NCBI RefSeq assembly: GCF_029227915.1
Contig: NC_079885.1
Span: 17,247,001-17,311,000, forward strand
Reading direction: 5' to 3'
DNA: 64,000 nt
DNA from: Hydractinia symbiolongicarpus
Lineage: Eukaryota > Cnidaria > Hydrozoa > Anthoathecata > Hydractiniidae
Shown: positions 1,030 through 63,205 of the stretch, piece by piece
Layout of the letters: each line of letters starts with the position of its first letter
Position numbering within the stretch: the first letter of the stretch is position 1
Translations under genes and position numbers: made by a program
The notes under the pieces: generated by a model
What the model saw: only the letters and a program-made list of their open reading frames with translations
The model's database searches: none
What the model was told of the DNA's origin: nothing

Positions 1030-2036
1030 AGTTAAGACCAAATTTGAAATTTGAGACAACTAAGGATGCAATGGACAAAAATCACAAGCTTATTTGGTGT
1101 TAGTGAAAAGACGGAAATCATTTGTAACGGTTATCAATTATAGTGTTCCAGCTGACTATGCCCTGGATGATATTGCTAGAGAAATAATCAATCAAAGTCC
1201 CAATTCTGGTGAAAAATGGTTAATGGTTCCCTGGTATGTAGGGGGAATATCACTCAAAGAGATAGATTGCGACAATCTATCAAAAGAGTGAACCCAAATC
1301 CTTTGAGTATAAATAAAAAACGAATATTTAGAAGAAAATACAATGTGCCATGTTCAATTACTCTCTGTAAGCATTAATATAATCACTGTAGTTTATTTCG
1401 CGTTTCTACTTAGACATTCTGAAATTTCTGTGAAAACATTATAATGTAGTAAAATGTTGTAATTTATTAAATTTCCAATTTGTTATTATATTATACGCAT
1501 ATGGATGGTAATCACAAATTGAAACAACAGAGCAGATACAGTTTTTGATCAATTTCTACTTGCTTCGCAAATATACAGACTTCCTCTTAAAATGACAACT
1601 GACCACAGAACAGAAAATATTTTGGTTGCTTGTTTACCTACTTCATGTTTACGGAGTGCATTTTAAGACAGAACGTGAAAATCTGTACATAACCAACGCA
1701 TTGAGCGCTTATGGGTAGACATATTTGTTTACGTTTTACAACAATTCTGGAATTATTTTAATTTTAAAGCACCAACATAATGATTTCCATTTATATGCCT
1801 TACATAAGTTTACATTCCTAGGATAAACGATGCTCCAGGAATTTAGGGAGTCCTGGAATAATCACTGAATTAGAACCGGAAGAAATAAAACACCAAAGCA
1901 GATTTAGACTGAGGGTTTTAATAAATGGGACCTGAACTATTTGAAATGACAGATTATGAACTAACTCAATTTGGAATCAATTGCGACGGTCCACTTTCTC
2001 CTTTTCAGGCAGCGCAACTGGAACTAGTATTATAAT
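1030..2036 (+). pseudogene. Second, degraded copy of the HECT-element DDE integrase
   Basis: Several frames on the plus strand line up in order with the integrase gene at 27.0-28.7 kb. A helix-turn-helix-like piece (SLFGVSEKTE) sits near 1085, followed by a segment ending LDDIAREI...PNSG near 1165-1220. A shifted frame encodes DRLRQSIKRVNP near 1262, matching [12 protein letters not shown] of the other copy. A DDE tail with [13 protein letters not shown] lies near 1690-1735, then a region with FRESWNNH near 1840 and a C-terminal GINCDGP near 1980. The core between about 1300 and 1580, where the first catalytic Asp should be, is unreadable. Multiple frameshifts and stops make it non-functional. 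No terminal inverted repeats like those of the intact-ended copy were seen around it. Confidence 0.72.
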
Positions 2037-6689: not shown

Positions 6690-9050
6690 TTAATAATACT
6701 CATAAGCATCATCTAGTTTAAAAACATTTTCATCGCTCACATTCTTTTTTATTCTACCGATGAACCTGGCAGCTTTTAAATGAATACTTTCTATTGGTTT
6801 CATAAGCGTAGACGAACTGTTACCCCAGACACTTATGCCATACAGGACAGATGGAAATATTCCACCAAAATAAATCGATTTCAAATCACCAGGTTCCATA
6901 AACCTCATTGAGTATAGCTTCTTTACCTTTAATGGAAAATCTTTACATACTTTATGTACCTGGTCATTCCAAGACAGGTTATTGTCAATGATAAGACCAA
7001 GACATTTTGTGGAGCTGGTAACACTAATTGTATTTTCATTCAATTTAAAATGTGGATATGGACAGATGAACTGTTGACGAGACATAAACATAATTTCTGT
7101 TTTACTTGCATGAATATTGAAGCGGTTCAGAGTAGCCCACTTGCTAACTTGATTTAATACTCTTTGGATTTCAAGAAAAGCTTGTTCAAACAAACCTGTA
7201 ATACAAAACGATGTTGGATCATCAGCAAACATATCAGTCTCACCATCATCAACGTTATCATGTAGATCATTGGAATCAATGGAGAAAAAATGAGGACCAA
7301 GTAGTAAGCCTTGGGGTACTCCAAACTCTACTTCCTCTGAAACTGATTTCTGTCCGTTCACAACAGTAAACTGATTCCGTTCTCTAAGGTAGTCACTAAG
7401 CAAAGAATACATATTTCCTGAAATTCCAGAAGCTATCAATTTCTTTTTCATGATATCATGTGAAACACAGTCAAATGCTTTCCTAAAATCAATGAACAGA
7501 GTAGCAACAATATTTCCTTGATCAATGGCTTGTTGCCATATCTCAGTCATGTGTAATAGGGCATATTCTGTTGATGTATTTGGCCGAAAACCCCACTGGT
7601 GTTCACTTATGAGGTTGAATTGGTTAAGATGATTGTCTATTTGAGCTGAAAGCATATTCTCAAAGATCTTACTAGGAATGCTTAACAGTGTTACAGGGCG
7701 ATAATTATCACAGTCTTGTTTCGAACCTTTCTTAAATAAACATTTTACTTTCCCTGCTTTCCAACTAGATGGATATTTAACTGAGTTGATACTTTATTTA
7801 ATTACTTCATACAGGCCACAGTTTTGAGGTCCAATAAGTTTTAAATGTTTTGCAGATATCTGATCAGCACCAAACGCTTTACCTTCTTTTATGCTGTTTT
7901 TAAATGATTTTTCATACAACTCATAGGAACAATCGATGGTGTTAATACATGGAGTTACTCTATATATGTGCTGTATGCTATGGTCAGGTGAAACGTTCCC
8001 ATTTAACCTCTTGCCAACAGTTGCAAAGTGATGATTAAGTAACTTTGCCTTGGCTTGGTCATCTGAAATTATTCCATGTTGTTCATCTTTTAGAGTAGCA
8101 ATTTCACAATTTGTTCTCTTACCCTGAAAATCATTTACAGTTTTCCAGAATGACTTACTACTTGATACGCCATTAAACTTTTCTTTCCAATAATCCTTTT
8201 CTGCAAGACGAGCAAGGTTTGTACATTTGTTCTTCAACTTCTTATATGCCTTTCATTCTGTTGAGCCTTTTGATGTTTTACGAGCTTTTAAAAGCAACTT
8301 GTGTCTGTTGTTTAGTTCTTTTCGTATTTCACCGTCTAGCCATGGTTTTGAATTCTGTCTCACCTTAACTTTTCTGACAGTTACATGTTTTGTTACAATC
8401 GATTTATAAATGTGTTCCCAACACCAAAGTGAATCGTCAACATCATCGAAAATAAAACAAATCTGCCAAGGAACATTCTCAAAATCTTTTATTAATTTCG
8501 ATACATCAAGGTACTTTGACACTTCAATGAATTTTGGTGTTCCCTTTGGTTTTTTAAAATTAAGTGATGTATAAACCAAATGATGGTCGGACATGGATCG
8601 TAACATCCAGTCAGACAAATATGAGATTTGATAAAAAGTTGCATTGTTATAATGAGATCTGTAAGACTGCTTGATGTATCTCTTATACGTGCTGGTTGTT
8701 TAATCAAGTTCACTAAATTAAAACTATACAAGGACTTTGCAAAACTGTTAGTTACCGCATTGTCAGTTTTGTTTGAGTAAGACAAGTCATAGTTGAAATC
8801 TCCTAAAATAACCATGTTTTTACGTTTTGAACGCACTGATTCCAATGTTGGCACCCATTTATTTAAGAATTTCTTTTTACTTTTAGGTCGATAAATACAA
8901 GTTACTAATGCCTTTTGAGAATTCACAATAACATTTAACCAGATGGATTCAATATTTACAATTTTATCACCAAAGTCTGATTCTGATACATTTAAAGCAT
9001 TGGAAATGTACATTGAAAACCTCCCCAGTGGTGTTTGCCGTTGTTTATTG
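6690..9050 (-). pseudogene. LINE ORF2: endonuclease plus reverse transcriptase, frameshifted
   Basis: Reading down from about 9050, the minus strand encodes an exonuclease-endonuclease-phosphatase domain (MYISNAL..., TCIYRPKS, VILGDFNYDL, SLTDLI), then a linker. The RT follows: NYRPVTLLS at about 7720, QWGFRPNTSTEYALL at about 7590, FIDFRKAFDCVSH, GVPQGLLLGP, MFADDP at about 7225, and a thumb and C-terminal region ending at 6690. The frame changes near 8620, 8240 and 7790-7655. The active-site box reads FADDP where FADDT is usual, and the LLLGP box differs from the usual SxLGP. The protein begins inside the endonuclease, so the element is 5'-truncated. Jockey/CR1-group non-LTR retrotransposon by architecture. 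Confidence 0.85.
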
Positions 9051-18340: not shown

Positions 18341-18485
18341 GTTTTGCCTCGATTAATAATACAAGTCAATAAATACATGACACATGGGTCAGTCCAATTT
18401 TCGCCATAAAGAACTGAGGTTGTTGAAGATTAAAGCTCCTCAGATTTGAAATTCTTGCTCAGCAAATATCCTGGACAGCAACACT

Positions 18486-19128
18486 ATGGCACCTAAAAAT
18501 AAACAACCTCTTCAAAAAGGCACTAAAGCACCAGCAACCGACACACCCAGTGAACAACCATGCTGCTCATCCACACCCCAGTCTGGTAAGCAGTTTTTTG
18601 ACACTCCTGTGTTTGAAACAGAGCCTCACATACGCACAGCTGAACAGTGGTCCTCTATGGGCAAGGAAGCGCTCCTTCTACTGGCCAACTCCTTGAACAT
18701 CCACACAAGAGGGAAATCTCTTCTGAATATTGTTGAGCTTTTGATGGCTCATTTTACCAGTGCAACACGTATTGGAGATAGCGACCTTCCCAGCAACACG
18801 TGGTCACTGGATTATCCTCTGACGATGCCGACATCAGCAATGCCTCTGGTGAGGAAATTCCTTTGCACAAAACCATACCGCTTCGTCTAAAGTTCACAAA
18901 GCGTCGAATAAACGAGTCCTGTTCAAACGAAAAAATACAACTTTTGACAATTTAAAAAAGGACCTATTTGATTTTGTTCGCACGGAAATTCGTAGCCAAG
19001 TAGAGGCTAACCAATTAAATCATTTGAATTTAACTGTACCAACCACGTCTTTGGGGCACCATTACACTGCGCCATCTTTGTTTTCCTCGCGCTAGTGTGT
19101 TCGGCCCGCCGGCTCTTTGGACCCAATT
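18486..19128 (+). pseudogene. DIRS-type element, gag-like ORF (left half, split)
   Basis: A frame opens at an ATG after a C-rich leader and encodes a Pro/Ser/Thr-rich start followed by an amphipathic segment (TAEQWSSMGKEALLLLANSL). After about residue 130 the frame shifts and continues through SSKVHKASNKRVLFKRK... and FVRTEIRSQVEAN. One TAG precedes the insertion point. Across the HECT-integrase element the reading ...GSLDPILD / QGGADAVAV... is continuous once one CTTGAT copy is removed, so both sides belonged to one ORF. Assignment as DIRS gag rests on the RT, RNase H and tyrosine recombinase found downstream on the other side. Confidence 0.6.
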
Positions 19129-19134
19129 CTTGAT

Positions 19135-19290
19135 TATGAGGGGGGATCCGGGTCAAAATTCCGTGCATTCGGTCGTCCGTTTTAGGCGTTCGTTTTAGGC
19201 ATTCGTGTGAACTGTCGTCCGTTTAAAGCATTCGTTTTAGGCGTCCGTTTTAGCGGTTGGTTTTAGGCGTTGGTTTCAGGCGTTCGTGGA
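19135..19290 (+). repeat. Left terminal inverted repeat with ~13-bp subterminal units
   Basis: The first 53 bases match the reverse complement of the right end with one mismatch. From about 19172 the motif TTCGTTTTAGGCG and close variants follow one another eight or nine times (for example TTCGTTTTAGGCA, TCCGTTTTAGCGG, TTGGTTTTAGGCG). Such clustered subterminal motifs are usual transposase binding sites; binding here is inference. Confidence 0.85.
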
Positions 19291-19963
19291 ATCGTTTGAT
19301 TGTTTTGATGATCGCGAGATTGAGCTCTCAGTTTTTAAGTATTTTGCAGAACCAGTCCTTGATTTATTACTTAAATTTTGATCTCCATCGTTGATGTTAG
19401 TTAAACATAAAAAATGGCGGATATCACGTCCATGCTGAGCGATGTAGTAAAAACACTAGAGAATATAGCTAAAAGAAAAAGCCAGAGAAAAAACGAATCA
19501 AACGACGAGGAAGACAAGCAAAGAAATAGGGAAAGATCAGATAAGATAGCAAAGCCCAGAACGACTCAATCTGAATTAAGGTATAGTTTGAGCTAGCTAG
19601 CTAACAGAAGTTCACAAAATGTCAATTCAACAATATCATAGATGGAAAGACAATAATACCACATAAAGTTTCTGGATTTTTTTTCTATATATAGTTCTGT
19701 CCATGCATCTTCATTTCCAATATTATATACAACAAACAACGTTTTTGAGTGTATTTTTCACTACTTTATTATAGCACCTTGTTCCCTCAATAAGAAGCAA
19801 AATACCAGATTCGTTGAAAAGAAGAAAGAATGAAGGTGGTGCCTGTGCTGGAAAAAATTCTTTTGTAACTGACACTTGGACACGGGATTTCTGCTGTCTT
19901 CCATACACGTTTTCTGCTGAAACACCCTCTGTTGATCTTCTTGGATTGTTAACCGAGGCAGGA

Positions 19964-20306
19964 GCCATAGATTAGTGGTTATAGCTCTCGTACTCTGTGC
20001 GGGAGACCGGGGTTCGATTCCTCTTGACGGCGATTCAACATGGGCGAGTGAGTGTTACCATAGCCCCGGGTTAACCCAAGCCATGTGAGGGAAATTGGGA
20101 AGATGGCACACTGTGTGTGCTGTTGGATGTTGCCAGGAGTTGTCTAGTAGAGCGCGGGCCCTAATTGGGTCTGCGTCGCTCAAAATGAGCATTAAGTACT
20201 CTAGGACTCTCCATCTAAGCCATGGCCCCTCCTGGAAATAATAGACAGGGTATATCCCTCGATATTTGTGAGGCTAGCCATGTAAAATATGCACATCTAT
20301 CTATCT
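19964..20306 (+). repeat. tRNA-derived SINE, full length
   Basis: The head contains an A-box-like TAGTGGTTATAGCTC and a perfect B box GGTTCGATTCC at 20011-20021. A ~250-base body shared with the other copies follows, ending CTAGCCATGTAAAATATGCA and a (TATC)n tail. AGGA occurs on both sides (19960-19963, 20307-20310), a probable target duplication. It sits inside an exon of the HECT gene, whose reading ...TEAG/LGRKR resumes after it. Confidence 0.88.
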
Positions 20307-20546
20307 AGGATTAGGGAGGAAAAGGATAAAGTTTAACCAAAAGGATAATCATCACACCTGAAGCATATCCTCGGCTGAAAGTTGTAGGTGGGTTCACTTT
20401 GTATAAAGCTGTAGATGGTGGTTCAAGGAGACCACTAAAAAAAATTGATATTGATTGGTACGATGTTAAGATGCTAAAAAAAAGAAAGAAATACATAAAG
20501 CCTCTGCAAGAGAATTTAGATCTGACTCACTTAAAAGAAAATGAGG

Positions 20547-20720
20547 TGTTATGTTTCAGGGTCGATTAAAAGTCGAGATATGAATGGATCAAATCGTTAC
20601 ATAAATGAATACAAATTGAAGGGATGCTGCCATCTTGGATCTCAGAATCGGAAGAGGAGACTTGCGCTGACTCAGCAAAACAAATAAGTAAAGATGGCAG
20701 CTGCACTGCGGGATACAACA
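20547..20720 (-). repeat. 3' LTR of the Gypsy element
   Basis: In element orientation this is the downstream LTR, preceded by the G-rich polypurine tract at about 20722-20733. It differs from its partner at two positions. Confidence 0.92.
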
Positions 20721-21061
20721 ACCCTCCCCAAATGGGATTCTGCCCAGAAACAAAGAGCAAGACAAAGAGGCTGTCGCAGAAAAACAAATGTAAATATATC
20801 GTAAATATAACCATGTAAATATAACCGTGTATATATGTCGTGAAAATAAAAATAAATTTCAATCTCCAACTTTGAAGTCGTTCATGTATCCAGGAAGTCT
20901 AATAGCTCTACCCGATCTAGTAAAATATGCTGGATCATGTTCATGATCTGAGTCTTCTTGATATGCAATAGTTTCAAAAGATTCGTCTAAGTTGATTTCT
21001 TCATCTGCAAGTAATGTGAAGTATTGCGGCTGGTTGTCGCTTATAGTGTCGGTGTCTTCGG

Positions 21062-22052
21062 CTATATTGGATGATTGAGATAATGGAAGTCGTAACGATA
21101 CGGCTTGATGTGACTCTTGTGTCGAATTGTCGTTCTATTCTTCTGGTCGATCAGGGTGACGGTGTTTCTGTGATTTCTCTCGACACGGTATGGTGTTTCT
21201 TCATAAAAGCTGTCCAGTTTTGACTTGAATTTATTGCGTTTGACTAAAACCATTTCATTTTCTTCGAAGTCTCGATGTTGTGCATTTCTTGCGGCATCGG
21301 TATACATCTTGGCTTTTCTTTTCTTTTCCATTTCTTGTGAAGTGTTCTCTATAGCTGAAGTTGGTTCAAATGATGGTATACCGTTGTTTGGTTTGTGTTT
21401 GAGGAGCATATCAGCTGGTGAAACGCCGGTGATAGAGTGCGGTGTGGTTCTGTACATGAGAAGAAAGTGGTCAAGTTCTTTCTTCCAGTCTTTCTGTTCA
21501 GTGATTGCACATTTTATGACTTTACTTAGCGTCCTATTGAATCTCTCTACTTCACCGTTCCCTTGTGGATTATAGGGAGATGAACGTTCATGGTGAATGT
21601 TCCGCTCTTTAAAATATTGCTCGATTTCTGCTGATGTAAATTGAGGACCGTTGTCGGAGCGAATTTTGCGAGGATATCCAAACATAGAAAAGGTTTTCTC
21701 GAGACAATTGATAACATGTTGTGTTGTCGTTGATCGGATGGTAATGGCTACAGGATATCGAGTTTTATAGTCTATGATGACAAGGATTGACTCGTTGTTC
21801 GTCGGCGGAAGCGGTCCTTTAAGGTCAATTGCTAGATGTTCCCAGTTGTTTGTTGGTGGTGATGGTATTTCCATAGGCTGATGTTTTCTGCTGCTGGGAG
21901 TGTTCACTTGACATGCATGGCATGAATTGATGAGGTCTTCAATTTCTTTGTTGATTGTTGGCCACCAGACTTTTTCGCGTAGTAGACTCTTCGTTTTGAC
22001 GATGCCTTGATGTTGAGAATGCGCAATGTCAAGGACTTTTCTGCGTAGTGAT
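21062..22052 (-). pseudogene. Gypsy integrase
   Basis: An HHCC zinc-binding segment (HSQHQGIVKTKSLL...SCHACQ) at about 22025-21890 is in frame with the catalytic core in 21907-21062. The DDE residues are visible in AIDLKGP, RSDNGPQFTS and GEVERFNRT. A C-terminal segment with a GPF/chromo-proximal-like VKRNKFKSKLDSFYEETPYRV follows. No chromodomain is seen. The core itself has no stop, so it is the best-preserved part of this element. Confidence 0.88.
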
Positions 22053-22917
22053 TTAGGTATCTTTTGGGTCGTAGAATGCTAATGTTGGTGCTTTTGTGAG
22101 TGCTAGCAGAAGCTGTTGGTACGCGTTTTCTTGATCATCACTCCATACGAAAGGTGTGTCGTTCTTTGTTAGATCTCTGATTGGAGCCGTGATTGATGAG
22201 TAATTTGGAATGAAGCGGTTGCAAAAGTTGACCATTCCAAGAAGCGATTTTACTTCGGTGACGTTGCTCGGTGTTTTCATCTGCTGGATGGCTGAAATTT
22301 TAGCAGGATCAGGTGAGATGCCTTTATCTGACAAGACATGACCGTTGAATGTGAGGGTAGTAACAGCGAATCGGCATTTGCTTCGGTTGACTTTGAGGCC
22401 ATTTTCGTCTAGTGGCTGGAACACACGTTCAAGGTTCTTGTCGTGGTTCTCGATGGAGGTACCCCAAATCAAGATGTCGTCACTGATGTTTTTCGCACAG
22501 GGGCAACCACTGATCGCAACTTCAATTTGTTTTTGAAAACTTTCAAAAGCACTGTTGATTCCATATATCAATCGTTTATATTGATGTAAGCCTTTATGTG
22601 TCGCAAAGGCGGTGATGTGACGGCTTTTCTTCGATCTTTGAGAAGTACATGGCACCATGGAGTTCGGTTAAAATGTCCTCTAACTTTGGTATTACATGAC
22701 GTTCACGTATGATTGCTTTGTTTGCCTGTCTCATATCCAGACAAAGTCTAATTTTTCCAGAGGGTTTGGCCACATGTACGATTGGATTGAGCCATGTGGT
22801 TGGGCCGTCAACTTTTTCGATGATGTCTGCAGTTAGGAGTCGGTCAATTTCACAAGCTACCTTTTCTTTCGTGTGGAAAAGGTACCCTTCGAATCGGTTG
22901 TTGAACTGGTATAACAT
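22053..22917 (-). pseudogene. Gypsy reverse transcriptase, defective
   Basis: Two overlapping frames give most of a Ty3-type RT: IVHVAKPSGKIRLCLDMRQAN, then YFSKI, then ITAFATHKGLHQYKRLIYGIN, the metal-binding box NISDDILIWG near 22480, and the thumb GMVNFCNRFIPNY. Between YFSKI and the next block about a dozen residues are missing with a frame change, removing the first catalytic Asp region. After FYDPK the sequence jumps directly to the integrase zinc-binding region, so RNase H has been deleted. Confidence 0.85.
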
Positions 22918-24263
22918 CCGGGTTGATGTGTAGTTTTAACTTGAAATCTTTCAGTAAACCGGTTCCTTCGAAGACAGATTGATGGTGGTGTAGGATCTGC
23001 TTGGTGGATAAAGGTGTTGTGTCTGGATTTATCTCCATGGCTGCGACTTGTTGTTGTGGTCCAACGCGAAGGATGTCAAGAGCTTCAGCGGTGTCTTTAC
23101 CTAACAAGGAACCCTTGTTACCAGGAACGATGTAAAATTTTGCGATATTGGTTTGATTGTTTGAACCAATAGAGGCGGTAATAACTCCTTTCAGGAAGAT
23201 TGGTTTTTCAGCTTTGTATGGGTAGATTTTAACTTTGGATTCGTGCACAACTGGTCGCGGTGTTATGAGGTTGAAGCTGGCTTCATCTAGGATGTTGATG
23301 GTGGAACCTGAGTCGATGATGACTTCGACGGTGCATCCATTGATGGTGACAGGAAATGTTGGTGATTTTTGTCCAAGTTGAAAGAAGTAAACATCGTCCT
23401 CATCTTCTGAGCTGTCAATTTCTGTGGCACGGGCATGTTGACGATTGTGTGTGGTATCTTTTTTCATCGAACTTTTGGTTTTTTGGAAGCAGACGGTTGC
23501 GAAATGTCCGATTTTCCCACGATGATTACAGGTAGCGTTTCTGCTGCGGCGGCATTCTTGAGCTCGGTGACCACTAGCTCCACATCGTGTACATGCGGTG
23601 TTGCTGTTTCGTCGATTGTTGTTGTTGCTATGCCCATTGTTGTTTTGGCGGTTGTTGCTGTTTTGGCGATAGTTGTTATTCTGTCTGTTGTTATTGTTAC
23701 GATGTCTCCTGTTGTTTTGACGCCCATGATCGATGTTGTTTGTTGATTCAGCCGTGGAAGATGATCCAGAAGCATTGTTGTTACTCTCTTCTATGGTCTT
23801 GTTGAAGTGACTGGCATCTTCCATTGCTTTGGATAATTGCTGTAGTCTCTCTAAGGTTAGGTTCGGTTCTGTTAGGAGGCGTTTTCGTAGTTTTGACGAA
23901 TGGCATGTGGCAATTACTTGATCACGGATGTTGTTGTCGACTTCATGCTCATATTCACAATACATTGCCAGTTGTCTTAGGCGCGTGACGTATTGTTCTA
24001 TCGATTCTGTTTCGAGTTGCAGTGATCGAATTTAAGTATAAGTTACCTTCTTCTTCTTGTTCTACGTCCAGAGTTTCGTATATGTCCTGGGTTTCTTGAC
24101 CCACAAGGTGTAGCAAGAGTGCATTTTTTCTGCTGTCATTGTTGATGCCTGATGCGATAAGGAAGTATTCAAACGCTTTCTTCCATTTTTTCCATCTTTG
24201 ACTGACTGTGTTTTGATCGCCGTTTGGATTGAAAGCCGGTACTGCAGGGATTTGAAGAGCCAT
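22850..24263 (-). pseudogene. Gypsy gag with CCHC knuckles and aspartic protease
   Basis: The first frame (24263-23955) begins MALQIPAVPAFNPNGD and holds the capsid-like region. A frame change near 24000 leads into the second frame (to 22850), which contains an Asn/Arg-rich linker and two zinc knuckles (CTRCGASGHRAQEC and a second whose middle Cys is replaced, CNHRGKIGHFATVC). A retropepsin follows with the active site VIIDSGSTINIL at about 23300-23330. The frame runs into the RT-proximal sequence (PIRRVPFPHERKG). Frame changes before and after make the polyprotein discontinuous. Confidence 0.85.
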
Positions 24264-24356
24264 TTTGTCTTCGATTTTTCCTGTGATTCGGTGGCTTTGT
24301 CGATAAAATATAACTGGATATAGTGAATTCAGTGATTCCTCTACCTCGTCGCCATT

Positions 24357-24530
24357 TGTTATGTTTCAGGGTCGATTAAAAGTCGAGATATGAATGGATC
24401 AAATCGTTACATAAATGAATACAAATTGAAGGGATGCTGCCATCTTGGATCTTAGAATCGGAAGAGGAGACTTGCGCTGACTCAGCAAAACAAATAAGTA
24501 AAGATGGCAGCTGCACTGCGGGATATAACA
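24357..24530 (-). repeat. 5' LTR of the Gypsy element
   Basis: Upstream LTR in element orientation. At 174 bp it is short for Ty3/Gypsy. It probably contains the promoter; no TATA box is evident by eye. Confidence 0.92.
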
Positions 24531-26659
24531 TAAGGTATATATAATAATGATTTAACATTGTTTCAATAATATATATATATATATACAGTATATACAGAAT
24601 TACATACTTTTTATGTGATAATTGTTTGTGTTTCTAATATCTTGTTTGCATAAATTCAGGTAGTTTGTCAGGAAAACATAATGAATAGATCTGGACCTGA
24701 AATAAAATGTTCCGGTTGCTCCCATCTATTTCCAATAAAATCACTTGAGGCACATAAAGCATTTTGCACGTATGTATTTTTTCGATATTATTATCAATGT
24801 TCAATATGTATTAAATTATATATATATATATAATAATAATCTTTTTCTTTAGTCCTACTGTAGTGAGCCAAGTACTTTCGAGTTGCTCTGATGACGAGGA
24901 TGAGGAACAGCAGAAAAAGAAAAAGAAACAATCAAAGATAAATTTTGATAAATTCTTGGAGCAGGAGCCAGTGGAAAGACTTAACGAGATGTTTCCAGAA
25001 AAAGATTATGAATCATTGTCCAAGACACTGGAAGAAAATTCTTTTGATATAACAGACACTATTGATGAGCTGCTATTAATAAAATCATGCTTTTCAAACA
25101 ATGCATCACATGAAGTTTCGAAAGTATGCAATAGGTCACATGAAGTTTCAAAAATTTTTGACATAAAAGATGCTTTGGAGGTTTTATCTTCACAGTTATA
25201 TGAAACATCAAAATCCCTCGATGTCAAGCCTGATTCAATATTTAACGACATCATGTCGTATTACAAGGACAGCAATTTCAATCCAAAGTAATGTTTAAAA
25301 ATAAGATACATAGACCAACCTGCGGCAGACACAGGTGGGGTTATGCGTCAGTGCTATACTGATGCATTTGAGTTTTTCCTGAATAATTGGTTTTGTGGAA
25401 TATCTGATACCAAGATACCCATATATAGGTCGGATATATATGTCACCAAAATTTTTGTTATCCTGGGATCAATTATCTCACATTCCATTTGTCAGGGTGG
25501 TCCTGGATTTCCTGTATTTCCCAAGTCGGTGTACAGGTATCTTATTAGTGGTAGCACCAGTGATGCCATACAATTTTTAGATGTGAATGACATGGGAGAT
25601 ATGCAAAAATGGAACTATGTAAATCAAGTGAGTGGAATTGCATTCTTCTTTTCCTTACCATAGCTTTACCTTCTGTACTTTTGAAAAATATTTAATGTAT
25701 GTAAAATTATTTTGAAATCAAGTTTAGTGACACAGTGACATTCTTTTCTGTGGTGAATTAACTCATTGGTACAGGTCTAAAACAAGAAATCGCAAAAATT
25801 TCTCCCAATGAAGTATCTGTGAAAAAACCTTTTAGACTCCTAGAAAATCACTTCACTTGAACTATCATGGTTTTTATCTTAGATAAGGACCTGTTATGGT
25901 GGAGATTTAAAGAAATTTGCAGAAGATCAGGAATTTCAGAATGTTTTATGCGACTGTGGAGAAGTTTCACAATTAACTGTAAGTACAATTTAAGTTTTAT
26001 TTGTGTAGAAGCTTTTCCTGTTTTTATTTTCTTTTTTTTCGTGTAATGATGAACATGCCTGTGGAAAGAAACTTAGTGAGTTCATTAACTTGAAATGAAC
26101 AAAATTAAATTCCCGGAAATATCGATACCCAATTTCTGAATTGAATTCCTGCAACAATGATTTTTTCATTTTTTTAGGATGAAACAAAGAAAGTATTATC
26201 CAAAACATAATAACTGACGATGTATTTGGAAAACGATTGGTTTTATATAATTAACTGAGAGAAGGGTTAAAAACATTAGGCTTGTTAGAGATGGTGGAAC
26301 ACCATCCAAATGTTTTTACCAAGTTTTTTGTTTTTAATGAAAAAGATACTCTGAACTTGGAGTCTTTTGAAATATGTAGCCAAAGTGAAATATTAATATC
26401 ACATTTCAAGCGATTTGTATCTGGCGCATCAACAGAGATATTGGATTCGATGTGTGTGTTTGCGACTGGTGCAAAGACGCCGCCATTACTAAAGAAAATA
26501 AAAATCTACTTTGACGAAATTTCAGGGAAATTTTACGCATCAACTTGCGAACAAACGATTACAATTCCATTGAAGTACGAAAATTTCGATTATCATGACT
26601 TTAACTTAACATTTCAAGCTGTCCTTCCGAAAAGTGGAAAAGCGTTCAACACAATATAA

Positions 26660-27045
26660 TGTCCGCTCTATTTTGTTTTAAACAGTGACATACTTATGTA
26701 CTTGTTTTGTTTTTAAGTTTCTTTTGTTACCCAACGGAAAGCGATTAATTCGAATTTCAGTGAGGTTTTTCACTTCTGTTTCTTAGATTGTCACACTACA
26801 AAGTCGTTTTTTGTAAAGCCCGTGAATGCGGTAAATTCTGTTCGTTTTTTATATGCATATGCTGACGATATATTCTATATTACGCAAGAAGTTAGTGTTT
26901 CAACTTATTGATATTTTTTATTGTAAAATATTTCAACAAATGAGAGAGAAGTTTTGTAAGATAATTTTTATTTTTATCTAACTAATGTAACAGACACATA
27001 TGGAGTATATGAGCTAATCCTGCGTGAGATAATATATAACTTGGT
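26660..27045. other. Convergent 3' region between HECT and integrase genes
   Basis: AT-rich spacer. An AATAAA on the minus strand near 26963 suits the integrase gene; no clear signal was seen for the HECT gene. Confidence 0.4.
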
Positions 27046-28698
27046 TTAAACAATTGTTTGTTTCGCATGTTCCCTGAGAGCCAAGTATATATCTGCTCCG
27101 AAATTTTCACTTTGTGCTTTTGGGTTAAATAATGCTGTGACAACTCTGTACTCTTCTGTCGTGAAAGGGTTGTTAATTTTCGGAACTTCTACGGTAACAG
27201 CGTCGTTGTCGCGTGAGCTCGGACCACACCAGTCGATCCCGTATAATTGCACCTCCTTTTCATTGCCTGGCTCCCATATTTCACGATCTATGTCCGCCCC
27301 CGTCTGTGCTATATTATGAAGCCCAAATATCCATAATTGATTGGGGGTCATGTTTCTCTCCGAGCTTAAAGGATGATTATTCCACCCATCAATAAACATT
27401 TGAAGATGCTGATTAATTCTAGGGAGAAATACGTAATGTAAACAAAAGAGAACGATTTGGTTATTGATATCCAAGTGACCAGATTGTTCGATTGAGAAAA
27501 ACTACTTGAAAAATTTGCGTAACTGCGGAGTAAACATCGACCCACAGTCTTTCTATTCTTTGATTGTGCACGCTCTTCGATGCTATGAAGCTTCCTCTTT
27601 CCAATCCTCTATTTTCCAACATGTATTCAGCAGCTTGGATATTTTCGCCGCCGTGGTCGCCTCGCACTCGGGATGGTAAGCCGTGTATAAGAACAGCACT
27701 GATGAAAAATTGATATACTGTACTGGCTCTGTTATTATCCGCACAGTGCAGGTAGATAATCTTTCTCGAATAACCGTCAATACATCCATGGATGACTAAT
27801 TTGTACCTATTAAGTGTGAATATAAAAAGTTGAATACGTAATAGACGCACAAAAAACGACGAAACAAGATCAAGAAATACGTACGCAATTAGTTTATGGT
27901 TTCCATCCATGTGCCATAACGACCAAGGGCCAGCTACTTTATATGTCCTGCGAGCGACTGGATTGAATTGAAGACTTCGCAGAAGAATACCCTCTGGATC
28001 CACTCGCCTCATTGATTCCCTAACTCTATCTTCTTGCACTTTTACACCAGTAGCCACCAAAAAACCCTTCATTCTTTTGTATCCTGTATTAGGGAAATCT
28101 TTCAGTATCATGATTATTTTTAAATCGAGTTCGTCATCATTTAAGTTAGAGAAAAGACTGTTTCTTCGCAAATTATACTCTTTTAAACGTCTTTTGACAG
28201 TACTCTCACTAATTCTCAACATTAAGGCTATCTGAGGATTTGTGAATCCATGACTTAAATAATATTCGAATACGTCTTCTGGTATTTTGAACTTTGGTGC
28301 ACCTCTACCACCACAGTGTTCTCTACTTACAAAAGGTAAACAACGCTCAGCATTGTGATCATCATCGCTCGAAAACAACCGAGAAATATCTTCGAGTTTA
28401 TTTATCAACCTATCATACCATATTTTCGCCCATATACTGCTTCTAAGTAAATTGCCAGTCTGTGAAGTCTCTCGAATCTAGTAGAAACTGCATCGTAGTC
28501 ATTGGCAGACAAATTAACATTAGAAGTTTCATGAATGATTTTAATGATCGTCTTTTTTAATTTATCAAGAATCAGGATCAATCCCTCTTTGTTTTGCTGA
28601 AACAATAGAGATTACAATTATTATTCACATTATTGTTTTTCAAAACAACTTCTCAGTAAATAAATGTAACATACCAACGAAGTAAGTGCAGCCGCCAT
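27046..28698 (-). pseudogene. DDE integrase of the HECT-integrase transposon
   Basis: Exon one is 28698-28675 (MAAALTSL, donor GTATGT), exon two 28596-27885 and exon three 27806-27046. The short second intron (78 bases, GTACGT...AATAG) is open in frame and looks coding if not removed. The protein has a helix-turn-helix near [21 protein letters not shown]. An integrase core follows with HMDGNHKL (first Asp), an [15 protein letters not shown] strand, RGDHGGEN (second Asp) and HNQRIERLW (Glu, 34 residues between the last two). Next is a WNNHPLSSERNMTPNQLW helix region and a C-terminal domain with GIDWCGP. This is the retroviral-type catalytic fold, as in rve-class integrases. Frameshifts near 28440 and near 27500 break it here. 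Confidence 0.85.
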
Positions 28699-28789
28699 GT
28701 TGTTTAACCCTGTTAGATAGTCAGAGTTAAATTTTATATATATTTTCAAGACCAGTTCTGTATTTTAACCGATAGTTTTTTCCATTGGC

Positions 28790-28899
28790 AACGCCTGAAA
28801 AACCAACCGCCAAAACGGACGCCTAAAACAGAAGACTAAAACGAATGCCTAAAACGGACGACCGAATGCACGGAATTTTGACCAGGATCCCCCCTCATA
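28790..28899 (-). repeat. Right terminal inverted repeat
   Basis: Reverse complement of the left end, with fewer internal units (about five to six): TCGTCCGTTTTAGGC, ATTCGTTTTAG, TTCTGTTTTAGGCG, TCCGTTTTGGCGG, TTGGTTTTTCAGGCG. The unit number differs from the left end, so the arrays evolve by unit gain or loss. Confidence 0.85.
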
Positions 28900-28905
28900 C
28901 TTGAT

Positions 28906-29882
28906 CAAGGTGGCGCGGATGCTGTTGCGGTACCTCAGCCTACAGATGAAGCTGTGCGCATTGAGGCCCCTTTGTTGTCTTCTCACATCCCCCAGGCCCA
29001 ATGTTCTGTACCTTCTCTGCCCGCCGTACCTAAGTAGGTCCGCACTGCCTAGGAATTCCTTTAGCCCCGGAAAAAATTGTTGGTCCATCCCGCGTCCTGA
29101 CCTATTTAGGCATTGAAATTGATACCACTGAATTCGTTATACGTTTACCTCAGGACAAATTTGATGCTATTTTGTCCTTGTTAAGAGTGTGGAAAGGAAA
29201 GAAAAAATGCACAAAAAAGGAGCTACTATCACTCATAGGACTGTTGTCTTTTGCATGCAAAGTTGTCAAATGTGGTCGCATTTTTCTGCGCCAATTAATT
29301 GACCTTTTTACTACTGTAAGTAGCCTTTACCATCACATTTCCGTTACATCGGAATCCCGAAAGGACATTGAGTGGTGGCTGAATTTTTTACCCAGTTGGA
29401 ACGGGATGGCAGTCATCCAAACATCATTCCTCACATCAGAAAGTTTAAACATGTTTACAGATGCTTCCATGAGTGGTTTAGGCGATTTTTACAATGGGAA
29501 ATGGTTTTCCATCCCTTTTTACAACACCAAATATCACAGCATTACCTTTCTTGAGTTGCTTGCGGTTGTTATAGCGGTACATTTGTGGGGTGAGAAGTGG
29601 TCTGATACCCTGGTTATCATTTCTACAGACAACGAGGCCATTGTCCGCATATGGAGTACTGGTTCGTGCAAATGTGAGCACATCAGGAAACTTGTTCGCT
29701 TGTTGTTTTATTTTACGGCAAATCACAACATAAATTTGCTGATGCGCCACATTTGTGGCACTTCTAATATTTATGCAGATTTACTTTCGCGTTTACAGGT
29801 CGCAAAGTTCAAAGAGCAGTGCCCATACGCCGAAGAGCTTCCTACTCCTATCCCCTCGTCAATCTCCGAATGCTTAGTGTGA
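28906..29882 (+). pseudogene. DIRS-type element: gag tail joined to RT end and RNase H
   Basis: After the target duplication the gag frame continues to a stop near 29036. Immediately afterwards a frame encodes IVGPSRVLTYLGIEIDTT and VIRLPQDKFDAI, the end of a DIRS-class RT. Then comes a linker with IEWWLNFLPSWNG and an RNase H (FTDASMSGLGDFYNGKW, LELLAVVIAVHLW, STDNEAIV, SNIYADLLSR). The RT palm with its catalytic box is absent, so gag has been joined directly to the RT C-terminus by deletion. Confidence 0.8.
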
Positions 29883-30421
29883 CAATGAATTACCTCTTCG
29901 ATGCTGCTTTATCGCCCAACACCAGACTTACCTACCGTTCTGTACTCTCATCCTACAGAATGTTTTGCCACTTTCCGCTCAATGAATCCCACCTTCAGCT
30001 CTATGTCAGTTTTATGTCAACGCGGGTCAAATATGCTACTATTAAGGTGTACTTGTGTGGGATACAGTACCAAAGTCTAATCTGTGGATTTTCCGAAAAG
30101 ATATCTGACATGGGAAAATTGTACTACGTAATGAGGGGTATTCGGCGAACTGAGAATGTTGTAAGCCGCCAGAAACTGCCAATCACGCCCTCCCACCTAC
30201 ACAAAATGCCCGATCTCAATACGCATAGCTTCAGGATTGGTGGGGCCTCTACCGCAGCATCTTGCGGTATTCCAGACTCTGCCATTAAGATCTTAGGCAG
30301 GTGGTCCAGCGACTGTTATCGTCGATATATCCATCTTCCCAATAAAGTGTTAACACAGTGGTGTTCTAAAATGGCCAACCTCAATGACGTGCCTAAGTTG
30401 TGGGACATTCGATCCATTTAA
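29819..30421 (+). pseudogene. DIRS-type tyrosine recombinase, internally deleted
   Basis: This 200-residue frame overlaps the end of RNase H in another frame, as in many DIRS elements. It has the SAM-like core-binding part (LSPNTRLTYRSVLSSYRMFC, YLCGIQYQSLICG). It then jumps to the C-terminal catalytic part: NTHSFRIGGASTAASCG with H-x-x-R, LGRWSSDCYRRYI with the Tyr. The segment with the first catalytic Arg and the conserved SKTDPF-like block is missing between LPITPSHL and HKMPD, so recombinase activity is not expected. Confidence 0.82.
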
Positions 30422-32519: not shown

Positions 32520-33810
32520 GCCTGGGGAAAATTGCGCAATATTTGGTTGTTCCACCTTTTATGAAGTTATTTTGGGAGGAGCAACAAAAGTATGTGCAAT
32601 CTTCTAGTCCACATAGTGTCAGATAACATCCTATGATCATCAAATACTGTCTGAATCTAGCTGCAAAATTTTCCTCTGTATATTCCGACTTGCAATTTGA
32701 TAAAAACACTGGTTCTGGAATATTAGTCCTTTCCAGAGGATTTAACTATCAAATTATTGAAGAAGAAAACAGCATTATTTTCAGCACCTGAGAGATTTGT
32801 CACCATACTATTTGACGAGATGAAGATACAGGAAGATTCGGTGTGGGATAAGTACACAGGTGCACTAATTTGTTTTGTGGACCTAGGTGATATTAATACA
32901 AACTTTGGAACACTCAAAAATTTAAAAGAATTAGCATCCCACGTCCTCGTTTTTCTTGTTAAAAGCATCGTAAACCCATTGTCATTCAGTTTTGCGACAT
33001 TTGCTACCACCAGTATAACCTGATTTCAGCTCATGCCTATTTTTTGGAAAGCAGTTTCTTATTTAGAGCAAATAAATTTAAAAGTTATTGCTGCTACAGG
33101 TGATGGTGCTTCTCCAAACCGTCGTTTTTTTAGAACGCACAAGTTATTATGCGCAGAGAGTCAGAAAAAAAAGTAGTGTATCGTTCCATCAACCTATATG
33201 CTACAGATAAACATTTTATATATTTTTTTGCTGATGTACCCCATCTCATTAAAACAGCTCACAATTGTCTGTCCAACTCTGGTTCTGGCAGAGCAACACA
33301 GTACATGTGGAACAGTGGGTTTTTTGTACTTTGGAGTCACATATCTCAGTTATATCATGAAAATCTTGAAAGTGGCTTAAAGCTAGTGCACAAGTTAACA
33401 AATGATCACATAAATTTGACACCTTATTCTAAAATGAGAGTCCGTTTGGCTGCACAAGTACTAAGTGAAACAGTTGGAAATGTAATTAATGAGTTTGGTC
33501 CACCTGAAGCAGCTGACACTGCACAATTTTGCATCATGATGGATGAGTTTTTTGACTGCCTTAATGTTAAAATGTTAAAATTGAAGAGAAAACTATTTTT
33601 AAGACCATGTGAAGAAAAGAACGCAATGATCATCCTTATACTGATAAAACCATCAAAAGCCAATTTTCTGTACGACCAATTGCTGGAAATGTTTGTGCCT
33701 CTGGTAGTAGCAAATTTAACCTTATTGATGATAGTCCATTGCCAAAAAGAAAGAAAAACTCTCAACAGATGCTACATCTCGGACATGAATTAAAACTGTC
33801 AAACCGGCTA
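32520..33810 (+). pseudogene. P-element/THAP9-like transposase, deleted
   Basis: It starts MPGENCAIFGCST, the first strand of a THAP zinc finger, but the rest of the finger is lost. From about 32740 the P-transposase catalytic region follows: FVTILFDEMKIQED near 32800, YTGALICFVDLG, HVLVFLVKSIVNPLSFSFA, then in other frames QLMPIFWKAVSYLE and VIAATGDGASPNRRFF. The frame at 33149-33793 continues with DVPHLIKTAHNCLSNSGSG, YMWNSGFFVLWSHI, LTNDHINLTPYSKMRV, LAAQVLSETV and FFDCLN. This is the RNase-H-like and GTP-binding-insertion region of P-type transposases. The C-terminal part is replaced and frameshifted. Confidence 0.82.
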
Positions 33811-61928: not shown

Positions 61929-62600
61929 GGACGGACGGACGGACGGACGGACGGACGGACGGACGGACGGACGGACGGACGGACGGACGGACGGACGGAC
62001 GGATGTATACGGGCATAGATGTTATGCAACCTCAATTTTAATTTTAAAATCATTTGTGTAACAGAAACCTGGCTCAAGGAACAGATGATAACAAATTCAA
62101 ATTTTAACATTCCGGGCTATAAGTCAGGAAATAGGACTGGTGGTGGTACATGTCTCTTTATACACAACTCTATTAATTATAAATTAAGAAGTAACTTGAG
62201 TATAAATACTGACGACTGTGAATCATTAACTGTTGAACTTATAAACAAAAACACTAGAAATAAAATTGTAACTGTTATGTATAGAAAACCTGCTGCAATC
62301 TTCAAAGAATTTAAACGACACTTTAAATCACACCTCACTAAACTAGATCACTTTAATAAGCACATTTACATTGCCGGAGATCTAAGTTTAAACATTCTTG
62401 AATATACATCAAATAATGAAGTAAAAACCTTTGTAGATACGCTCCTTCAACATAATCTTATTCCAACAATAACCAAACCTACGAGAGTGACTTTGACATC
62501 TGCTACCATAATTGATAACATAATCACAAATAATTTTCATAACAACGAATATCAAACTGGAGTGATTGAAACTGATGTATCTGATCAATTCCCGACCTTC
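61590..62600 (+). pseudogene. LINE ORF2 endonuclease, interrupted and 3'-truncated
   Basis: It starts MDDNASFFDIFNSNL and reaches FSLLNINTRSISKNFENLKT, the opening of an AP-type endonuclease. The insertion at 61810-62018 breaks it, and it resumes CNLNFNFKIICVTETWL, then TGGGTCLFIHNSINYKLRSN and VTVMYRKPAAIFKEF. The GDxN block reads GDLSLN, and FVDTLLQHNLIPTITKPTRV follows. The catalytic Glu of TETWL is present; the DFN Asp position is altered. The frame then leaves the domain at about 62590 and no RT follows, so the element is cut off. Confidence 0.8.
61810..62018. mobile_element. Small insertion with (AGAC)n(GGAC)n array
   Basis: Begins ACTAGTCGTTAGCCCGTAGA with a small GAATCCACGGGTTCGCCCG segment, then about 11 AGAC units and 20 GGAC units (61874-62002), and ends GATGTATACGGGCAT. 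It splits the LINE endonuclease between codons, so its borders can be read from the protein. Start-like sequence recurs at 58505 and end-like sequence at 52913, so it is a dispersed family. The tetranucleotide arrays recall Helitron-related non-autonomous elements; that link is inference. Confidence 0.68.
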
Positions 62601-63205
62601 TTACTATCTGTATCCCGGGTTCCTGACGCTCTCGGCATTACGGGGACTACACGGTACAGGGCCGCGAAAAGTAGAAAATATCCAAAGTACAAGTCAAACA
62701 GGAGAGCGTCAGGTGGACCCTCCTTGAATTTGAATTCACAATCTGAATTCACGTCGCTGATTGGCTGAAATTTTAATTGTCGGCGTTAAAAAAAAATATA
62801 AATAAGTTGTCGGTGAGGCACGTTCAACGAGCCTCACCGACAAAAGGAAAGCCAAACGAAAGCTTTTTTATCAACCTAGACCCCAAAGTTAGTTAACTTT
62901 ATTTGTTTAAGTTGTCGAGAATTAAAGGGGAAGTTCGGTCAAAAATTATATTTTCATAATCAATAGTCATAAAAGAAAAAAAAAGAATACGATAATTCTT
63001 TTTAAATGAAACCCTTATTTTTTTTAAATAATCTGTGTTAACCACGCGTAAAAACACCTCCGTAGACTGACCCCTTTACGTTTTTACGAAGGCTGGGTCG
63101 AGTTTGAATTATGACGTTTTATAGTTCAAAAAGCGAAGTTCAGTGTTGGGGATTAGGTGTAATCACACGAAGAAGCGTTTTGTTTATGCATTTTATTATT
63201 TCAAT
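62601..63205. other. Intergenic; hairpin and TTAA-type element end
   Basis: 62807-62843 is a hairpin with 13-bp perfect arms (TTGTCGGTGAGGC). At about 62928 TTAAAGGGGAAGTTCGGTC resembles the end at 16797, so the THAP gene that follows may lie inside a TTAA-flanked transposon. CGTAAAAACAC (63047) and GTTTTTACG (63079) form a loose inverted pair. TGACGTTTTATA at 63112 could be a promoter site of the THAP gene. Confidence 0.45.

Follow-up and report, generated by a model that had tools for sequence, protein, structure and literature searches.

Can a ubiquitin ligase be a regular component of a cut-and-paste DNA transposon, encoded beside the integrase and inherited with it? The question is raised by a stretch of 64,000 nucleotides (here called the window) of the hydrozoan Hydractinia symbiolongicarpus (contig NC_079885.1, positions 17,247,001 to 17,311,000 of the forward strand), in which a preliminary description had placed, at 19135 to 28899, a DNA transposon pairing a HECT E3 ubiquitin ligase with a DDE integrase. 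According to our analysis these coordinates hold, and the proposal of one mobile unit, with a HECT-type gene and an integrase gene enclosed by common terminal inverted repeats (TIRs) and 6-bp target site duplications (TSDs), is borne out in the window and in five further families. We consider it very probable that this anatomy, together with a long co-inheritance of the two genes, describes these elements correctly.

Boundaries and insertion site

The matching ends described previously are TIR arms of 64 nt each, 97% complementary, and the subterminal repeats of both ends are complementary as well. The ends read TATGAGG...CCTCATA (TA..TA), and a genome search with the left end returned 27 matches, a figure that counts both ends and repeat units. 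The exact 6-bp duplication CTTGAT was likewise confirmed, and empty sites with a single CTTGAT were found elsewhere in the genome: the joined flanks (219 bases) gave 25 genome matches, including two that are the window itself, with two full-length matches at 97% and eleven matches of at least 170 bases outside the window. In an alignment made with the plus strand of six loci, three (L041, L043, and L044) displayed the uninterrupted junction with one CTTGAT, and the other three were unaligned in that orientation. The element therefore entered a repeated sequence, duplicating 6 bp. The repeat that hosts it (window 18450 to 19134 and 28906 to 30418) carries a frame that by eye resembles a reverse transcriptase/RNase H, without a Pfam match.

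Ligase and integrase genes of the window

The two convergent multi-exon genes of the preliminary description correspond to a ligase gene on the plus strand, resolved by tblastn with a hybrid query into about six exons, and to a DDE-type integrase gene on the minus strand which matches the Pfam family rva_4 in two pieces (Table 1). A short interspersed nuclear element (SINE)-like repeat and a long terminal repeat (LTR) retroelement both sit inside the ligase gene; the latter has two 174-bp LTRs, 99% identical, with flanks TGAGG/TAAGG, and is missing at that spot in the related copies L009 and L010. Since the region 20547 to 24530 is this nested retroelement, the integrase with H2C2 and rve matches that lies there is not part of the transposon.

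The zinc knuckle, CUE-like, and HECT segments attributed to the ligase can be placed on the gene (Table 1), but the window copy itself is broken and its CUE match (0.031) falls below the cut-off. The relatives P0001 (Exaiptasia) and P0002 (Clytia), which cover 63% and 26% of the hybrid window ligase at 29% and 41% identity (E value of 4.6e-39 for P0001), are uncharacterized animal proteins known here from protein sequence alone, of a type that we presume to be what is called G2E3-like. P0002 and a further relative, P0004, match Pfam HECT, and the zinc knuckle of P0002 reaches 0.0024 with zf_UBZ, below the cut-off; P0001, which one source names CUE domain containing, matched no Pfam family. Pairwise hhalign of the window protein with the HECT region of P0002 and P0004 gave an uncalibrated probability of 91% over 236 columns, with the candidate catalytic Cys in place. 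The HECT identity of the window ligase thus rests on relatives, initially on these database proteins and the profile alignment, then on the other families described below. The AlphaFold model of P0004 gives no evidence on the HECT domain, since its predicted local distance difference test (pLDDT) score is below 50 over residues 266 to 577 and others; the N-terminal domain resembles ubiquitin in the model, where the best PDB match has an E value of 0.03 and none is under 0.001. Sequence searches of the PDB returned no HECT or integrase chain and one CUE1 chain at an E value of 1.2. A profile search for further ligase relatives added three partial proteins only, and viral contigs compared with the integrase and ligase alignments yielded no confirmed case among 34 and 75 pattern matches.

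In the integrase, D, D, and E occupy conserved alignment columns, including the motifs HMDGNHK and HNQRIERLW, and its predicted structure is fair (mean pLDDT of 73.8). An integrase with a helix-turn-helix (HTH) had been proposed; rva_4 lies above the cut-off and the HTH_23 match just below it. None of the rva_4 integrases scanned by Pfam matched H2C2 or HHCC, and HTH_23 or HTH_21 was found upstream, below the cut-off. The database protein P0005 matches the window integrase at 88% identity across 78%, the intron included as open frame; it is therefore probably a translation of genomic DNA, from this species or a close one.

Table 1 Features of the transposon and of the sequences nested in it, by position in the window
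Feature	Position	Strand	Evidence or remark
Left TSD copy, CTTGAT	19129..19134		Sequence; empty sites carry one CTTGAT
Left TIR, starts TATGAGGGGGGATCC	19135..19198	+	97% versus right arm; 27 genome matches of end
Subterminal direct repeats, short and in a 13-bp register, with mirror counterpart at right end	19172..19294	+	Repeat analysis
Ligase exon 1 (MADITSML...)	19414..19581	+	Open reading frame (ORF); similar in L009, L011, L014
Ligase exon 2, first part	19790..19963	+	tblastn with P0002 and hybrid query
Nested SINE-like repeat, AGGA on both sides, foreign to transposon	19964..20306		Missing at that spot in L009, L010
Ligase exon 2, second part	20308..20554	+	tblastn; ubiquitin-like by fold of relative P0004 residues 116-220; frame shift near 20359; final few bases overlap nested LTR
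Nested LTR retroelement, foreign to transposon	20547..24530	-	Integrase matches to H2C2 and rve; zinc knuckle and protease matched weakly
Ligase zinc-knuckle exon (C-x2-C...H...C)	24657..24770	+	tblastn
Ligase CUE-like segment, HECT N-lobe; interrupted by in-frame stop	24845..25630	+	ORF, Pfam, relatives, tblastn
Ligase short exon, HECT domain	25868..25981	+	tblastn
Ligase HECT C-lobe, candidate catalytic Cys (ASTCEQTITIP)	26255..26656	+	Alignments; similar in L009, L010, L011
Integrase last exon, with C-terminal tail; covers rva_4 positions 124-185	27049..27501	-	Pfam 6e-18
Integrase HTH-like stretch and catalytic core, in-frame intron inside	27461..28477	-	rva_4 2.4e-50; HTH_23 1.2e-4, just below cut-off; alignment
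Integrase N-terminal exon	28405..28611	-	ORF; similar to P0005
Right TIR	28836..28899	-	Repeat analysis
Right TSD copy, CTTGAT	28900..28905		Sequence

Further copies and other families

Both ends of the window's family are present in five fetched copies (the window, L009, L010, L011, and L015), and the TSD is exact in three of them: CTTGAT in the window, CAATTC in L010, and GTTTTT in L015. Between these ends, one order of ligase and integrase pieces is shared by L009, L010, and L011, and L015 is an 888-bp internal-deletion derivative in which the TIRs and part of the ligase gene are left. L013 does not enter the TSD count, its flank being a duplicate of the L015 flank; the left end of L016 is damaged, and no end pair of this family was obtained for L012, L014, L017, and L019.

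Other families were examined in two sets, six integrase loci chosen blind to HECT (L026 to L031) and five chosen for a nearby HECT match (L032 to L036). The scans demanded TSD and TIR jointly, without a shuffled control; TA ends were preset for L026 to L031 and for the later completion of ends, and a scan that also allowed TG and CA found only TA (L035 and L036). An exact TSD and an 8-bp inverted TA end surround the integrase in four of the six blind loci (L027, CATGAG; L028, GAAGCT; L029, GAGGTC; L031, GCTGAG). Ligase-family similarity was detected by tblastn in L027, L028, L029, and L030, that is, in four of six, and consists in L028 of a 45-aa tail only; L031 still holds a shortened ligase related to that of L035 (alignment of 114 codons). 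The fetched L026 sequence ends where its PF00632 match (Pfam HECT) begins, and no TIR/TSD pair was found for this cut locus. The HECT C-lobe piece of L030 scores 3.2e-4, below the cut-off.

In the second set, all five elements have exact TSDs (L032, CACATC; L033, CACCCC; L034, TAAAAT; L035, CAAAAG; L036, TCATTC) and inverted ends that are identical across the 22 to 25 nt shown, save one mismatch in L035. PF00632 is above the cut-off in all five, and the ligase frames run stop to stop over 641 aa in L032, 596 aa in L035, and 702 aa in L036, those of L033 and L034 being split; the integrase frames of L032 to L036 measure 503, 526, 394, 409, and 425 aa. Pfam CUE exceeds the cut-off in L032 (1e-5), the sole case among the pieces scanned. 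L029 and L033 are one family, and the L032 integrase agrees at 100% identity with the database protein P0055 (Hydractinia symbiolongicarpus). The termini begin with TATGA in the window's family and with TATGG, TACGG, or TACGA in the others.

The L032 integrase family comprises at least 16 rva_4 matches at the top score and at least seven nearby HECT matches of one score with a 641-aa frame; the equal scores point to a probably very recent spread. L028 (682 to 4291, G000:C1:12005881-12009490, TSD GAAGCT) has inverted repeats of 554 bp, 99% identical and built of internal repeats, and its integrase has a weak SAM-like N terminus (0.0037, below the cut-off).

Pairing of HECT and integrase loci across the genome

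For the genome-wide comparison we used 150 rva_4 matches, those scored among 705 candidates, and 141 Pfam HECT matches, from 129 scored of 198, merged into 90 loci. For 37 of the 90 listed HECT loci, an integrase match of the list is found no more than 6 kb away, compared with a mean of 0.35 and a maximum of 3 in 2000 trials of random placement, for which three of 15 scaffold lengths were approximate; conversely, 39 of the 150 listed integrase matches have a HECT locus within 6 kb. Since PF00632 misses the window ligase and the lists comprise only the candidates scored, pairs are undercounted. The most frequent arrangement is the convergent one of the window, with the HECT gene on the opposite strand and downstream of the integrase (15 pairs), followed by the same strand with HECT upstream (12, of which nine belong to the L032 family) and by the same strand with HECT downstream (nine, all of the L028 family); opposite strand with HECT upstream occurs once. 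Three rva_4 matches of equal score form a tandem array at G000:C10:7939548, 7943292, and 7947036, with a spacing of 3,744 bases.

Probable co-inheritance of ligase and integrase

Seven representatives, the window, L030, and L032 to L036, were used for the comparison of divergence. Their integrases are 22 to 53% and their ligases 13 to 47% identical in pairs, and the HECT Cys is kept in all seven aligned sequences. Ligase and integrase distances are correlated (Mantel r of 0.80), with 15 of 5040 label permutations giving an equally high value, and the groups {L034, L036}, {L034, L035, L036}, and {L032, L033} appear in both trees with support of 0.95 to 1.00. The correlated sequence distances suggest a long co-inheritance of the two genes. 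For L034 and L036, the proportions of synonymous (pS) and nonsynonymous (pN) differences are 0.785 and 0.364 in the ligase (309 codons) and 0.877 and 0.337 in the integrase (394 codons); no ratio is given, as synonymous sites are saturated, and judging from these sequences both proteins have been under similar constraint since the split.

Superfamily and known relatives

The IS3EU/GingerRoot superfamily is described, in the accessible part of PMC10045372, as having TA..TA ends, a 6-bp TSD, and a DDE transposase without the N-terminal HHCC motif. The termini and the absence of the finger agree with what we found, and the 6-bp TSD occurs in the window, L010, L015, L027 to L029, and L031 to L036, with L009, L011, and L030 as exceptions. 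Matching ends, TSD, and protein architecture are therefore the grounds on which these sequences indicate that the superfamily is best named IS3EU/GingerRoot, and the window element is a damaged yet recognizable member of this type of cut-and-paste lineage. The main text of PMC10045372 mentions neither HECT nor ubiquitin, whereas a HECT-type gene recurs in the Hydractinia families. Further relatives are the fungal IS3EU elements with ends TAYGG..CCRTA and with alpha-kinase or TET/JBP passengers (PMC12730594, accessible part): the TET-bearing ones share the 6-bp TSD, similar TIR ends, and extra genes beside the transposase, one oppositely oriented, but the Hydractinia elements are hydrozoan and their passenger is a HECT-type ligase. 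Helitrons that carry deubiquitinase-type domains, VTD or OTU (PMC9741609, accessible part), also encode an enzyme of the ubiquitin pathway; they are rolling-circle elements and their enzymes remove ubiquitin, whereas the Hydractinia elements combine a DDE integrase with a ligase-type gene.

The new part would be the HECT gene in an IS3EU/GingerRoot-type element. We found no report of it among the open-access matches listed, and none in the accessible parts of PMC10045372, PMC12730594, PMC9587614, PMC9741609, PMC4255032, PMC3946583, and PMC4284660; the novelty is provisional, since Repbase and most subscription journals were outside the search.

A second, decayed rva_4-like integrase lies on the plus strand at window 1213 to 1925, with 23 to 39% identity to several relatives, flanked by a 20-bp repeat (GATTATAATACTAAGTTATC) whose arms are some 4.4 to 4.7 kb apart. 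Around it no significant ligase similarity was detected, the only match being P0002 at E values of 0.11 to 0.18.

Alternative explanations

Several observations weigh against a functional pair of long standing. The window ligase is interrupted by one in-frame stop and one frame shift, and no match to PF00632 was reached. Within its family, L009 lacks a TSD, that of L011 agrees in five of six bases, and selection ratios among copies range from 0.27 to 2.03 on few changes (rows of L007 duplicate L011 in this comparison), without clear purifying selection; the recent copies look neutral, as expected of dead copies. For the L030 integrase the scans gave no enclosing TIR/TSD pair, the one end pair obtained in L030 (6194 to 6904) having been dropped because the integrase is not enclosed, and the two trees disagree on L030 and the window (support of 0.56 to 0.79). 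The 37 pairs are not independent events, since 18 of them are copies of two families (nine of L032 and nine of L028), and the differing placement of the ligase indicates that rearrangement or recapture occurred. Separate termini for HECT and integrase genes, which according to the preliminary description would speak against a single unit, were found in none of the elements read at both ends, but at a distance of up to 6 kb a listed integrase is missing for 53 of the 90 HECT loci and a PF00632 match for 111 of the 150 listed integrases. The 53 unpaired loci include host-like multi-exon genes and one locus (C1:29493934) that matches the L032 family in score and in its 641-aa frame.

The broken window ligase and the neutral look of the copies are what one would expect if the HECT gene were a host fragment captured once by one element, in an accidental and functionless pairing, and transposons do capture host exons. 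This is very improbable, given the shared termini in several families whose integrases are only 22 to 53% identical, the 37 of 90 HECT loci near integrases, and the open frames of 596, 641, and 702 aa. Weightier, if still unlikely, is that different integrase elements acquired HECT genes several times, so that the pairing is real and useful without going back to one ancestral association: the three main arrangements, ligase identities down to 13%, and a CUE match confined to L032 among the scanned pieces all fit, and it is the Mantel correlation and the three well-supported groups common to both trees that argue for descent together. Nested insertions in the window copy might also suggest two unrelated mobile or host genes brought together by chance, as happened with the LTR retroelement; the identical gene order of L009, L010, and L011 between identical ends and the repetition of the pairing in other families, within their own inverted ends and exact TSDs, make this hardly conceivable.

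That the element is a Ginger1, Ginger2, or Polinton and not an IS3EU is improbable. Ginger elements have a TSD of 4 bp, and Polintons (Mavericks) are large elements with a protein-primed DNA polymerase; our bounded integrase elements span 2.9 to 9.8 kb, and no polymerase-like frame was noticed among the listed ORFs, in which no search aimed at polymerase was made. The retroviral-type DDE integrase common to all these groups, as we understand it partly from the accessible text of PMC10045372, favors such a relationship, and the 6-bp TSD, the TA..TA ends, the HTH-like N terminus, and the lack of an H2C2/HHCC match oppose it, the same source giving an N-terminal HHCC motif for Ginger1, of which the window integrase has no match. 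On this evidence chance neighborhood, a single host-gene capture, and the Ginger or Polinton assignment were rejected or down-weighted.

Possible role of the ligase

Judging from its family, the integrase would very likely bind the ends and move the element. The HECT protein, with its ubiquitin-like domain, zinc knuckle, CUE-like segment, and HECT domain, would serve the element as an E3; it most likely acts in trans, since it is separately encoded, occurs in several arrangements, and conserves its Cys. Our tentative preference is that it removes or modifies a host factor of chromatin or silencing by which the element is held in check, by analogy with the TET/JBP and deubiquitinase passengers. 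Our second choice, which seems rather doubtful, is that it ubiquitinates the complex of integrase and DNA and so brings about its disassembly or adjusts its level. Either way, the elements suggest that mobile DNA of this type may exploit the ubiquitin tagging of the cell for its own ends. In its widest form, which we put forward with reservation, our reading is that an animal IS3EU lineage ancestrally carries a second core gene, its own HECT ligase, on which transposition or the evasion of host silencing depends in trans, and that the swarm of uncharacterized CUE/HECT (G2E3-like) genes in cnidarians, and perhaps in fish, derives in part from it, by copying or by domestication.

If this holds, a transposon lineage with a conserved ligase is a natural test bed for the use of the ubiquitin system by mobile DNA, parallel to the fungal elements with TET/JBP enzymes and to the Helitrons with deubiquitinases, and the HECT-like and integrase gene families left unnamed in cnidarian annotations would gain a concrete origin. 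Several families with open frames are available in Hydractinia, a laboratory animal.

Other features of the window

A frame on the plus strand at 33134 to 33790 matches Pfam TNP-like_GBD (2.7e-16) and presumably belongs to a P-element-type transposase. An RVT_1 match (9.4e-24) on the minus strand at 6693 to 7793 and an endonuclease frame below the cut-off on the plus strand at 62019 to 62765 are probably remains of long interspersed nuclear elements.

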